DNA from: Halobellus captivus
GTDB lineage: Archaea; Halobacteriota; Halobacteria; Halobacteriales; Haloferacaceae
NCBI RefSeq assembly: GCF_007655485.1
Contig: NZ_VJXQ01000001.1
Coordinates: 166,466 to 230,465, forward strand
Direction of reading: 5' to 3'
Length of the DNA: 64,000 bases
Below are positions 37,140-59,549 of the stretch, in pieces. A program made the translations under genes and the position numbers. Every line of letters starts with the position of its first letter. Position 1 is the stretch's first letter. The notes beneath the pieces are model-generated. The model was not told the origin of the DNA and ran no database searches. It saw nothing but the letters and a program-made list of their open reading frames with translations.

Positions 37140-37186
37140 GAGATATCGGCACCGCAGAGATTTGTGGTCGCCGAGTCGATCCGTCG

Positions 37187-37286
37187 GAGTCGACACCAGC
37201 CAGTCGGAGTCGACACCAGCCAGTCGGAGTCGGTATGGATCGGTCGAAGTCGGCATACGTCAATCCGAGTCGGCACCGACCGACTC
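37187..37286. repeat. 20-base tandem repeat, five units
   Basis: Unit GAGTCGACACCAGCCAGTCG occurs twice exactly (37187-37206, 37207-37226) and continues as three degenerate units in the same 20-base register to 37286, running into the 3' end of the minus-strand membrane protein gene. A 14-base partial unit precedes it. Confidence 0.65.
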
Positions 37287-40277: not shown

Positions 40278-40670
40278 CTCCCGGATGTGTCCGCGAGGTG
40301 TTCCGTTCTGCGAGAGTCCATACGCTCCACATATTGTATTGCGGTATGTGATTTATTCACCGTCGTTAATTCACCAGCGAGCGCTGTAGATCCTGCAATA
40401 GAGGATAAACTACCCGACAGTGTGACTGTCGCGTGGGTCGCAAATGCACAATTCCGTAACCATCATCCTCGCTCATGGTGAGACAGACTCTTTTTCGGGG
40501 TGAATCCACAGTCAACCGACGATGGTCGGATCTGGATGTCGTCCCGTACGCACCACTGGGACAGCGGACGGCACGACCCGCCATACCAATTGATCGGCAG
40601 GGTGCATAGCGTAGGTAACGGTACAGTCTCGATTGGGGCCTCGAGGTTCCACCATCAAATCATCAATCGC
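40278..40670. other. intergenic, no gene recognised
   Basis: About 390 bases with moderate GC. The short minus-strand open frames here are not convincing proteins. A T-rich stretch near 40490-40497 could end transcription. No repeat structure like the octamer array to its right, apart from an isolated TGATTC at 40671. Confidence 0.4.
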
Positions 40671-40734
40671 TGATTCGTTTAGCCTGGGTGATCGACTCCG
40701 CATTTCTGCAGATCTCTTCAAGTTTGTACGTCGC

Positions 40735-40988
40735 CGATTCAACGATTCAAAACCATTGTATCTGTGATTCCTTGATTCTTTTATTCTTTGAATCAGCGAT
40801 ACAGTGATTCAGCGAGTTAGCGAATCGAGGAATACCTGATTCAACGAATGTGCGAATCCAAGATCCCTTGCGCTTTTGTATCACGAAATCGCAGAGTTGC
40901 AGATTCAATGAATAATAGACTCCTTAATTCTCAAATTCCCTGATTCACTGATCCGATGAATCACAGATTCAATGAGTTAAGGAGCCAC
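40735..40988. repeat. contiguous 8-base degenerate repeat array (candidate centromere)
   Basis: Two units (40735, 40743), a 14-base break, then 28 back-to-back octamers from 40765 to 40988 in perfect 8-base register. Consensus N-G-A-W-T-C-N-N: by my count position 2 is G in 24, position 3 is A in 26, position 5 is T in 23 and position 6 is C in 21 of 28 units. Best copies are TGATTCAA, TGATTCAC and TGAATCAC; TGAWTCA is itself palindromic. The first 60-base line (40741-40800) has 19 G or C. Upstream of parA; likely bound by the product of the downstream small gene. Confidence 0.85.
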
Positions 40989-41034
40989 GTTCGGACCAGC
41001 ACTTCTTTGGAACGGTACTGCGATTTTCTGTTTT

Positions 41035-41074
41035 CGAATCAGTGACTCTTTGATTCACTGAGTTGTTGATAGGG
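41035..41074. repeat. second octamer cluster, five units
   Basis: Units CGAATCAG, TGACTCTT, TGATTCAC, TGAGTTGT and TGATAGGG follow each other from 41035. They are not in the same 8-base phase as the main array, which suggests an independent cluster separated by about 46 unrelated bases. Confidence 0.7.
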
Positions 41075-41154
41075 ACGAAATACGTTCATAAAGCCCCTAC
41101 TGCCCCTTTCCGGGAATAACGTCTTTGATACAAAGATCAAATTTCGGGATCGGA

Positions 41155-41190
41155 TATAGATTTATGAATCAATGAATCAATGAACGATCG
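41155..41190 (+). promoter_or_regulatory. parA promoter with octamers next to the start codon
   Basis: A TATA-like TATAGATTTA (41155-41164) is followed by two identical octamers TGAATCAA (41165, 41173) and a third partial one (41181) immediately before the ATG at 41191. Three earlier ATGs created by the repeats run into TGA after 3 to 5 codons, so translation must start at 41191. A protein bound here would block transcription, giving autoregulation. Confidence 0.6.
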
Positions 41191-42102
41191 ATGACTGACG
41201 CACCACGTGGATGGGCCGTCACGCCGTCAACTGAGATCCCCACTGTCGCCTTCGGCAATCAAAAGGGCGGAACTGGGAAAACGACGGCGACGATTAACAG
41301 CGCGGCGGCACTGGCCACTCGCGATCACGAGGTCCTCGCGATCGATTTGGATCCCCAGGCGGATCTGACGAAGGGGCTCGGTCTGGGCCCGGGCGACGAC
41401 ACCGACCCATCGAACCCGAAGAACGCGCTCCCGAACACGCTCGTCACCGACGATGCGAACCTCTTGGACGTCCTCGTCGACAACCCGCGGACGCACGATA
41501 CGAACCTCTCGGAAATCGTGATCCGAGCCGACGAGTACGATCACCTGAACTTCGACTTGGTTCCGAGCCACAAGGATATGGGTCTCGCCAGGGACTGGAT
41601 GGACGACGCCAACGCCCGTCTCTCGCTGAAAGTAGCCCTCGAAGAGCTGGTCGAAGACGGGTACGACTACGATTTCATACTCATCGATTGCCCGCCGGAT
41701 CTCTCAGTACTCACCGATGCGGCGTTCATCGCCTCCCAAAACGCCCTTTTAGCCGCACAAACCCAGGCCACGTCGCGAGACGCGCTGGACGATCTGTGGG
41801 ACCAACTCGAATCGATCGAAGACAATCAACAGATCGAAATCGGGATCGTCGGTCTCCTCGCCAATATGTACAGAGACGACGGCCAATCGAGGAAGTTCGA
41901 GACCGTGTTCACGGAGTCCTTCGCCTCAATGGCACCGATTTTCAAACTCCCGATGCGCGTCGCGATTCAGCGCGCGTGGGATAACGGACGGGACATCTTC
42001 GAGTGGGAGGATGCGAACGACCAACAGGTCGAACGCGACGTCTTCGGAGATATCGCCGAAACGATGGAACGGGCGTTCGACAGAGCGCCGGTGGAGGCGT
42101 AA
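41191..42102 (+). CDS. ParA-type partition ATPase
   Basis: The 303-residue deviant Walker ATPase has QKGGTGKTT (Lys25 and Lys30 of the KGGTGKT signature), the switch AIDLDPQADLTKGLG (about 52-66) and the Walker B strand FILIDCPPDLSVL (about 161-173). There is no N-terminal helix-turn-helix domain, as in type Ib ParA. Such ATPases move plasmids or chromosomes over the nucleoid together with a centromere-binding partner. The gene is two bases upstream of a small gene that probably encodes that partner, and is flanked by octamer repeats. No replication initiator gene is nearby. Confidence 0.92.
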   Translation: MTDAPRGWAVTPSTEIPTVAFGNQKGGTGKTTATINSAAALATRDHEVLAIDLDPQADLTKGLGLGPGDDTDPSNPKNALPNTLVTDDANLLDVLVDNPRTHDTNLSEIVIRADEYDHLNFDLVPSHKDMGLARDWMDDANARLSLKVALEELVEDGYDYDFILIDCPPDLSVLTDAAFIASQNALLAAQTQATSRDALDDLWDQLESIEDNQQIEIGIVGLLANMYRDDGQSRKFETVFTESFASMAPIFKLPMRVAIQRAWDNGRDIFEWEDANDQQVERDVFGDIAETMERAFDRAPVEA

Positions 42103-42104
42103 CG

Positions 42105-42530
42105 ATGCCCCGAGGAATGGACGAGCGGTTTGCGACCCCGGGGGGAGACGACGGAGAAGAGCCTACCGGGAACGAAGCCCCGCTGACGGAATCCCGAAGC
42201 GATTCATCGAAGGACGACGGCTCGTCTCCGCAGGGTAGTCCCTCCGCGTCCGATGCGGAATCGACGAACGCCGAACAGCGCGAAGCGGACGACGAACCGC
42301 TCAACATCCGCGAGGACTGGGATTCGGCGACGATATACGTCGAGCCCGAACAGAGCGAGGACATCGAGATCGCCTTCACTCGGTTGAAAAAGCAACTGCA
42401 ACGCGAAGATACCACCCTGGAGAAGAACAAACACTTCTATCGCGGTATTTTCGAGATCGCCTTCGACGAGCACCGAGAAGAAACCAAAGCGCGGATCCGC
42501 GAACTCGCGGCTGCCGACAGCGATCACTGA
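42105..42530 (+). CDS. acidic small protein with predicted ribbon-helix-helix C-terminus, ParA partner candidate
   Basis: The 141-residue protein starts two bases after the parA stop. Residues 1-65 are acidic, Ser/Asp/Glu-rich and probably disordered. The end is structured: a strand ATIYVEPEQ (about 79-87), a helix DIEIAFTRLKKQLQRE, a turn, and a helix NKHFYRGIFEIAFDEHREE. This strand-helix-helix order is that of ribbon-helix-helix DNA-binding proteins such as plasmid omega and ParR/CopG. No sequence family is recognised. The role as centromere-binding protein and repressor is inferred from operon position and the flanking repeats; its stop codon lies inside an octamer. Confidence 0.75.
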   Translation: MPRGMDERFATPGGDDGEEPTGNEAPLTESRSDSSKDDGSSPQGSPSASDAESTNAEQREADDEPLNIREDWDSATIYVEPEQSEDIEIAFTRLKKQLQREDTTLEKNKHFYRGIFEIAFDEHREETKARIRELAAADSDH

Positions 42531-42559
42531 CTCACGGATTCAATGAGTTTGTGATCCTT
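42528..42559. repeat. downstream octamer cluster, four units
   Basis: TGACTCAC, GGATTCAA, TGAGTTTG and TGATCCTT in strict 8-base register. The first unit starts with the TGA stop codon of the small partner gene. The repeats therefore bracket the two-gene cassette on both sides. Confidence 0.7.
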
Positions 42560-42676
42560 GTCCGGGGGTGTCGACGATCCGATTCTCACATTGACGCGAC
42601 TATATAGTGTACGATACGAGTCAATAAACCAATAACTGCGATATAATTTCCGAACAACGGGCCGAAACGGCGGTGG

Positions 42677-42689
42677 TCCCCCTAGGGGA
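42677..42689. terminator. palindrome after the par cassette
   Basis: The core CCCCTAGGGG (42679-42688) is a perfect 10-base palindrome extended by one pair on each side at 42677-42689. It lies between the par cassette and the next promoter and could be a terminator or protein site; no long T tract follows. Confidence 0.35.
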
Positions 42690-42741
42690 GACGTGATAGT
42701 GCCGCGGAGTGACACTCTTCCGAGGAGCGCGGACGTGCTAC

Positions 42742-42748
42742 TTTATTA
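42742..42748 (+). promoter_or_regulatory. TATA box of the aspartoacylase-like gene
   Basis: TTTATTA, 22-28 bases before the ATG at 42770, typical leaderless spacing. It shows that transcription restarts after the par cassette. Confidence 0.5.
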
Positions 42749-42769
42749 GCGGGGCTCTTTGGACCGTCT

Positions 42770-43801
42770 ATGAGCGACCCGAAGCCGTTCAGATACGACG
42801 CAGAGGTGCCCGCCGGAGAGACGCGCCACCTCCGCTATGAGATCAGCGAGACGTACCTCGGCGATCCTGTCGAAATACCCGTGACGATCATCAACGGTGA
42901 GAGGGGCGGTCCGACAGCGTTTCTGTCCGCGGCGATTCACGGCGATGAACTGAACGGTGTGAAGGTACTCCAAGAAGTGGCAGACCGGTACGACCCCACC
43001 GACCTCCACGGAACGATCGTCTGCGTACACGTCGCCAACGTTCCTGGGTATCTCGCACAGCAGCGCTACATTCCGATATACGATTTGGACCTGAACCGGT
43101 CATTTCCGGGACGGGCAGGCTCGAACACGGCCGAACGAATGGCGAACCAGATCTACGAGCGGTTCGTCAAGCCCTGTGACTTCGCCCTCGACTTCCATAC
43201 GTCGACGCGAAACCGGACGACGATGTACCACGTCCGTGCCGACACGGGCAATCCGGCGGTCAACAGACTCGCCCGTGCGTTCGGCTCGAACCTCATCCTG
43301 TCGGGTGAGGCGGATCAGGGATCGCTGCGCACGGTCGCGACGAGAGACGAGATTCCGACGATCACCGTCGAGATGGGGCGCGCGCACCGATTCCAACCGG
43401 AGTTGATCGAGCGCGCACTCGACGGCGTCGAGAGCGTCCTCGCGGAGTACGAAATGCTCCCCGAGGCCACGGTCCAGTGGCCGGGATGGACGAAGGTCGT
43501 CGACGGCGACGGCGAAAAGACGTGGCTCCGCGCCGACACCGGCGGACTCGTCGAGATGCAGTACGGTCCCGTTCCGCTCGTCCACGAGGGCGAGACGATC
43601 TGTACGATCACGGATCACTTCAAAGAGCGCGAGAAGCGCGTTGCGGCCCCGTTCACCGGCCTCATCATCGGTTCACTGCAGAATCCCGTAGCGGCCCCCG
43701 GGCACCCGCTGTGCCACCTCGTCGGCGTCGACGACGCGACGCTCCGAGAGATCGAACGCGAAATCGACGCCGGGGAGTTCAGCGAACGCCCGTGGATGTA
43801 G
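42770..43801 (+). CDS. succinylglutamate desuccinylase/aspartoacylase family zinc hydrolase
   Basis: The 343-residue M14-like enzyme has the zinc ligands in AAIHGDELNGVKVL (His and Glu, about 56-69) and the third ligand His in DFHTSTRNRTT (about 141-151), with DLDLNRSFPG (about 105-114) between. A barrel-sandwich C-terminal domain follows from about 245. Family members deacylate N-acyl amino acids, and haloarchaeal copies are often broad N-acetyl hydrolases; substrate not determined. Cytoplasmic. Stands alone beside the par cassette. Confidence 0.88.
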   Translation: MSDPKPFRYDAEVPAGETRHLRYEISETYLGDPVEIPVTIINGERGGPTAFLSAAIHGDELNGVKVLQEVADRYDPTDLHGTIVCVHVANVPGYLAQQRYIPIYDLDLNRSFPGRAGSNTAERMANQIYERFVKPCDFALDFHTSTRNRTTMYHVRADTGNPAVNRLARAFGSNLILSGEADQGSLRTVATRDEIPTITVEMGRAHRFQPELIERALDGVESVLAEYEMLPEATVQWPGWTKVVDGDGEKTWLRADTGGLVEMQYGPVPLVHEGETICTITDHFKEREKRVAAPFTGLIIGSLQNPVAAPGHPLCHLVGVDDATLREIEREIDAGEFSERPWM

Positions 43802-59404: not shown

Positions 59405-59511
59405 CGCGGGTAGTACTTGGACTGCCAACGACTTAATACTTCGACCTCCAGAAAAATGTTTTTGCTAAATACGAATAATACATAACAAAACTATGATCCG
59501 TTCGGGCATCG

Positions 59512-59549
59512 GACCGGTCTAGATTGATCCGACCGGTCTAGATTGATCC
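59512..59549. repeat. perfect 19-base tandem duplication
   Basis: GACCGGTCTAGATTGATCC occurs twice head to tail (59512-59530 and 59531-59549) between dpsA and the GTP cyclohydrolase gene, downstream of the latter's stop. ACCGGT and TCTAGA inside the unit are palindromic. Confidence 0.6.

Follow-up and report, generated by a model that had tools for sequence, protein, structure and literature searches.

An unbroken octamer array beside a haloarchaeal parA operon as a candidate centromere-like site

The par cassette and its octamer repeats

The window, that is, the whole 64,000-nucleotide stretch of Halobellus captivus DNA that we analysed, is located on a 1.09 Mb contig. It contains a parA gene and a small downstream partner gene, bracketed on both sides by eight-base repeats. 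The features of the locus are as follows.

40735–40750, no strand assigned: two CGATTCAA units whose phase differs from that of the main array (TRF period 8, 2 copies, 100% match)
40757–40988, no strand assigned: main array, 29 contiguous octamers with consensus TGAWTCAN and 0 indels; proposed centromere (parS-like)
41035–41074, no strand assigned: second block of 5 octamers, in a register that differs from that of the main array
41153–41164, plus strand: TATA-like element GATATAGATTTA of the parA promoter, adjoining the repeats (by reading of the sequence)
41165–41188, no strand assigned: three promoter-proximal octamers, TGAATCAA TGAATCAA TGAACGAT; proposed autoregulation operator
41191–42102, plus strand: parA, 303 aa, with the deviant Walker A motif KGGTGKTT (Pfam AAA_31, E 1.3e-34)
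42105–42530, plus strand: partner gene, 141 aa, proposed centromere-binding protein (alignments A1, A2 and A3)
42528–42559, no strand assigned: distal block of 4 octamers, its first TGA serving as the partner stop codon

The gene order was compared with what defines type Ib partition systems. ParA also matches the PHROG ParA-like partition protein (E 4.3e-39), and its NQKGGTGKTT stretch begins at about residue 23, which leaves no space for an N-terminal DNA-binding domain. The locus thus has the deviant Walker A (KGGxGK[ST]) ParA without such a domain that is expected of type Ib, together with a small partner gene directly 3' of parA, here after a gap of 2 bases; the spacing between the two genes is comparably tight across loci L037–L068.

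The strong units of the main array fall into a single register (start mod 8 = 5) over 232 bases, 40757–40988, each TGAWTCAN unit being a seven-base near-palindrome plus one base. The first-pass annotation had described 28 octamers from 40765 to 40988. Its column counts were reproduced exactly (G at position 2 in 24, A at position 3 in 26, T at position 5 in 23 and C at position 6 in 21), but the array is wider than it supposed, comprising 29 units from 40757 in addition to the outlying blocks. The autocorrelation that it had proposed as a check gave a lag-8 self-identity of 0.551 over 40765–40988 (z = 9.7 against 1000 dinucleotide shuffles), far above the highest z that those shuffles reached at any lag (4.3), with strong harmonics at lags 16, 24, 32 and 40. 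In 240-base windows along the 64 kb, the lag-8 z rose to 9.8 at the array and did not exceed 2.6 in 1574 windows elsewhere. Genome-wide, pairs of near-consensus octamers formed a dense cluster only at the main array, among the matches listed. The octamer array is confirmed as a real feature. A segment finder placed the main block 442 to 202 bases 5' of parA, plus one weak unit at its far end.

The window holds two other tandem repeats: a perfect 20-base repeat, GTCGGAGTCGACACCAGCCA, in 2.5 copies at 37183–37232, 3' of a RuBisCO-like gene, and a 19-base repeat, ATCCGACCGGTCTAGATTG, in 2.2 copies with 95% match at 59508–59549.

The outlying octamers do not share the phase of the main array; the satellite units at 40735–40750, for example, lie in register 7 as opposed to register 5. 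The promoter-proximal octamers end close to parA, occupying 26 to 3 bases 5' of its ATG, and a block stands at the matching position (-26 to -2) in L041, L049, L053, L060, L061, L062 and L064. That GATATAGATTTA acts as a promoter element is inferred from the customary position of haloarchaeal promoters. By the same inference the promoter-proximal block overlaps the region just past the TATA-like element, so that a protein bound there would block transcription. The distal block scored 18.5, exceeding all 240 background pieces. Counting the window, 25 of 28 loci have such a block near the partner stop codon, beginning 3 or 11 bases short of the gene's end (19 in one locus); it is absent from the other 3 of these octamer-family loci and, among the loci listed, from those of a sister family with 9-base repeats.

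Related cassettes and the chromosomal setting

A scan of named genomes identified 45 loci, 32 of them with full-length parA homologs of 84–88% identity. Almost all of the full-length homologs belong to named haloarchaea, several being plasmid-borne, and the cassette of parA, partner and array was observed on plasmids and contigs across haloarchaea. Within up to 600 bases upstream of parA, 31 of the 32 full-length haloarchaeal homologs showed a lag-8 peak (z 4.6–9.6), the remaining one, L067, reaching z 3.4. The first-pass annotation had asked whether homologous parA loci carry such repeats, and they do. Neither the truncated L069 nor the bacterial relatives gave a lag-8 peak, with the exception of one bacterial relative, L080, which gave z 3.7 yet contains zero GAWTC units. 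L069, on the chromosome of Natrinema gelatinilyticum, retains only parA residues 107–303, has no array and is probably a decayed copy.

The 911 units from the window and its homologs yield the consensus T-G-A-W-T-C-A-N; 93% of them have A at position 3 and 87% have G at position 2. Short repeats 5' of the operon, a further mark of type Ib, are therefore present and conserved. Most relatives have about three blocks, each of roughly 6–14 units, in differing registers; the 29 units of the window are the longest unbroken octamer run that we have seen. Among 10 close relatives, G2, A3, T5 and C6 show roughly half the variation of the other positions (0.067 versus 0.118; permutation p 0.001), revealing an in-phase constraint on the core, although this p-value is approximate because the sites are not fully independent.

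In five species of the genus the locus is empty. They have a regulator gene followed directly by an AstE/AspA-like gene, without a par cassette; here the cassette separates the HTH regulator from the AstE/AspA gene, the insertion region being 40360–42770. In a further genome (G099) the neighbouring regulator gene is followed by a macro-domain gene. In another, G094, the cassette occupies this locus too and is flanked by the same genes, without the AstE gene, and its array consists of 19 octamers in a different unit order with the promoter-proximal repeats retained. The five empty sister sites and the G094 cassette indicate a chromosomal insertion of the cassette in this lineage, and the fact that the inserted array kept its period there suggests continuing use. 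No tRNA was found in the window and no integrase was noticed. In a parA gene tree taxonomic families are intermixed, as expected from plasmid transfer, and the window and G094 copies are adjacent with weak support. The octamer ParA system is mostly plasmid-borne; the copy in the window lies in a large chromosomal contig.

Searching 292 genomes of the class with a partner profile recovered relatives in 134. A sister parA-partner family, with ParA mostly of 272 aa and the motif KGGAGKT, showed 9-base or multiple-of-9 upstream peaks in 18 of 18 loci examined. Its unit, read by eye, is AACGAANNN (loci L150–L167, L033, L035 and L036). Upstream of parA in L031, beside another ParA-partner pair, lies a strong 9-base array built from another unit, GTTGTGAGA. 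Some distant loci recovered with the same profile have no clear array (for example L111–L114) and others have weaker ones. We put period-9 signals within partner genes down to coding repeats and disregarded them.

Each of the five ParA loci that we found in this genome is preceded by a short array, the periods being 8, 9, 9, 13 and 13. For the four other than that of the window (L003, L004, L005 and L007, on contigs C19, C21, C17 and C16, with periods of 9, 9, 13 and 13) at most 1 in 300 shuffles reached the top value; their unit sequences differ, and their small partner genes encode acidic tails. That coexisting systems use different units, and often different periods, fits an inference that no partner recognizes any array but its own. 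We can offer only as speculation, and with considerable doubt, the wider proposal that haloarchaea possess orthogonal ParA systems in which the partner family sets the period (8, 9 or 13) and several centromeres coexist in one cell without cross-talk, the chromosomal octamer system of this genus being a true segregation locus of the chromosome.

The partner protein and the proposed function

The partner begins with a conserved MPRGMDERF peptide, in which R8 and F9 are nearly invariant; a variable, acidic linker joins this to a C-terminal domain that is conserved and predicted as strand-helix-helix-helix. A review (PMC5016525) gives a similar layout, with conserved ends and a variable linker, for centromere-binding proteins of type Ib. 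Type Ib partners are expected to have a flexible N-terminal tail whose conserved arginine motif acts on ParA, a role for which the MPRGMDERF peptide is only a candidate. Plasmid records label the protein "hypothetical". It had no Pfam match at the cut-off, no family for it is named in NCBIfam or PHROG, and the Pfam matches of 57 partner relatives included no named partition family up to E 1; a weak S21 match was regarded as chance. In the Halobacterium salinarum plasmid records NZ_CP148058 and NZ_CP146596 the partner match covers residues 56–131 only and no gene is annotated, possibly a broken copy.

The first-pass annotation had compared the array with repeats bound by a ribbon-helix-helix protein; for the partner being such a protein we find weak sequence similarity and no match in fold searches. 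The pattern TxYLP, helix, KNRHFYP, second helix resembles a ribbon-helix-helix with a long first helix. An alignment of the partner with a profile built from RHH_1 proteins of these genomes brings its strand and helix A into register. The alignment scored 16.5, more than any of 200 column shuffles reached (best 13.8) and more than the reversed profile (10.4), at a probability of only about 6%; 3 of 57 family members also have a weak RHH_5 match. Built on 57 diverse sequences, an AF2 model of the C-terminal domain (pLDDT 85.6) predicts helices at 18–36, 44–59 and 61–76 after an unpaired segment, TIYVEP. An initial model from 44 mostly close sequences had been poor (pLDDT 59.7), and fold searches with it returned unrelated chains. 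No ribbon-helix-helix protein was among the matches that Foldseek, VIA-align and the viral library listed for the second model; this does not exclude the fold because only a monomer was modelled and the ribbon-helix-helix strand pairs in the dimer. PDB sequence searches with alignments A1 and A3 gave no relevant match and none to SegB (SegB was not compared directly), and alignment A3 showed no detectable similarity to the single L005 partner sequence. Given an in-register alignment of low probability and uninformative fold searches, we consider a ribbon-helix-helix fold likely, not shown.

We think it very probable that the array is a centromere-like site, and in part an operator, of a three-part haloarchaeal segregation system of the ParA type, in the absence of any binding, footprint or segregation data. 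The candidate tandem-octamer centromere of the first-pass annotation is to this extent supported, by the shuffle-tested 8-base peak and the homologous loci, its function remaining an inference. In the mechanism that we propose, by analogy with pSM19035 (PMC9499535) and TP228 (PMC7308502), a partner dimer would bind, probably, one 8-base unit through its ribbon-helix-helix-like C-terminal domain, and dimers coating the contiguous array would form a nucleoprotein coil. The conserved N-terminal peptide would then contact nucleoid-bound ParA-ATP and stimulate ATP hydrolysis, and the ParA ATPase so triggered would move or position the DNA that carries the array. Excess partner might occupy the three units 5' of parA, shut the promoter and so set protein levels. 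Our observations cover the array, how widely it occurs and how well it is kept, the order of the genes and the period typical of the family; binding by the partner, autoregulation, ATPase activation and segregation are each inferred. Counting against this reading are the fold searches, the lack of a curated family for the partner and the distant parA-partner loci without a clear array; in addition, it is unclear whether a polyploid haloarchaeon needs active chromosome segregation.

We also considered that the repeats are an operator array only, through which the partner represses the parA operon while segregation is determined elsewhere or is absent. The three units over the promoter, 26 to 3 bases 5' of parA, would suit such a role, as would the fact that the binding protein of type Ib systems usually serves both functions. 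However, about 200 bases separate the end of the 29-unit block from the start codon, the block far exceeds the length that an operator needs, the distal block lies 3' of the operon, and no further dense array was seen in the genome among the matches listed; we judge repression alone an unlikely account of the repeats.

Two other explanations seem less credible still. AT-rich short direct repeats near plasmid maintenance genes are often origin-related, and the octamers might be replication-origin iterons or origin recognition boxes; yet the window contains no Orc1/Cdc6 match, the nearest on the contig being about 73 kb away and below the family cut-off, and the period tracks the parA-partner family and no replication gene, so that we give an origin very little weight. 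A neutral microsatellite, arisen by slippage in an AT-rich spacer, would likewise be AT-rich, tandem and degenerate. It is hard to reconcile with degenerate units that remain free of indels across 232 bases, with the in-phase constraint on the core positions, or with a period and consensus that persist across many genera and also in a chromosomal copy whose units stand in another order, and we scarcely entertain it.

A review of archaeal genome segregation counts the nature of the centromeres of archaeal chromosomes and plasmids among the open questions (PMC5120986). A centromere-like role for the array would make this locus a defined, testable site together with a partner protein left hypothetical in databases. 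The rule that the period follows the partner family could be used to locate centromeres on other haloarchaeal replicons and to design vectors for haloarchaeal genetics that are stable or incompatible on purpose.

Comparison with known systems

No earlier description of haloarchaeal par repeats was found in the literature searched, many journals being outside its coverage. Spacing of about 8 bases is known from the boxes that ParG binds in parH of TP228, and the ribbon-helix-helix repressor MetJ recognizes contiguous 8-base near-palindromic boxes. MetJ operators differ in having two to five boxes, in serving metabolic regulation and in involving no ParA. The remark of the first-pass annotation that it knew of no 8-base version in archaea therefore needs qualifying: the spacing in general has precedents, while the haloarchaeal occurrence, the length and the family-specific period appear to be new.

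The parallel that the annotation had drawn, with omega and parS of pSM19035, is apt as an analogy and not as membership, the period of 8 and the unit TGAWTCAN failing the WATCACW heptad criterion of that system. The two share contiguous, unspaced short repeats at par promoters, each unit taking one dimer in pSM19035 (PMC9499535) and, by inference, here, and in the delta/omega system, itself of type Ib, at least four contiguous parS repeats are required for activation of the ParA ATPase (PMC9499535). The bacterial parS, however, has 7-base non-palindromic WATCACW units, 7–10 per site, at separate promoters, in contrast to the 8-base near-palindromic units, 29 in a row, and the tandem parA and partner genes described here. 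The partner has no detectable sequence relation to omega.

TP228 ParF-ParG-parH likewise has an array of short boxes 5' of an operon of a parA-like gene and its partner, together with an operator array (PMC7308502), and ParG, which coats parH and also represses the operon, combines a flexible N-terminal tail with a C-terminal DNA-binding domain (PMC7308502). Its boxes differ in being tetramers with AT-rich spacers between them, the system is bacterial, and we detected no sequence relation between ParG and the partner.

Among archaea, the SegAB system of Sulfolobus combines a ParA-like ATPase and, encoded downstream of it, a ribbon-helix-helix protein with binding sites 5' of the operon (PMC5120986, PMC9178275), but it is chromosomal and crenarchaeal, with two imperfect palindromic sites 5' of segA and no long array. 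The AspA-ParB-ParA system of pNOB8 is also an archaeal plasmid partition system in which a site-specific protein spreads on DNA (PMC5120986); it differs in having three proteins, a winged helix-turn-helix AspA and a single 23-base palindrome. By analogy, then, the haloarchaeal arrangement would work as bacterial type Ib systems do, with binding and segregation inferred, and it is distinguished from them by the length and sequence of its unit, the length of its unbroken array, an operon bracketed on both sides, the family of its partner and the domain of its host.
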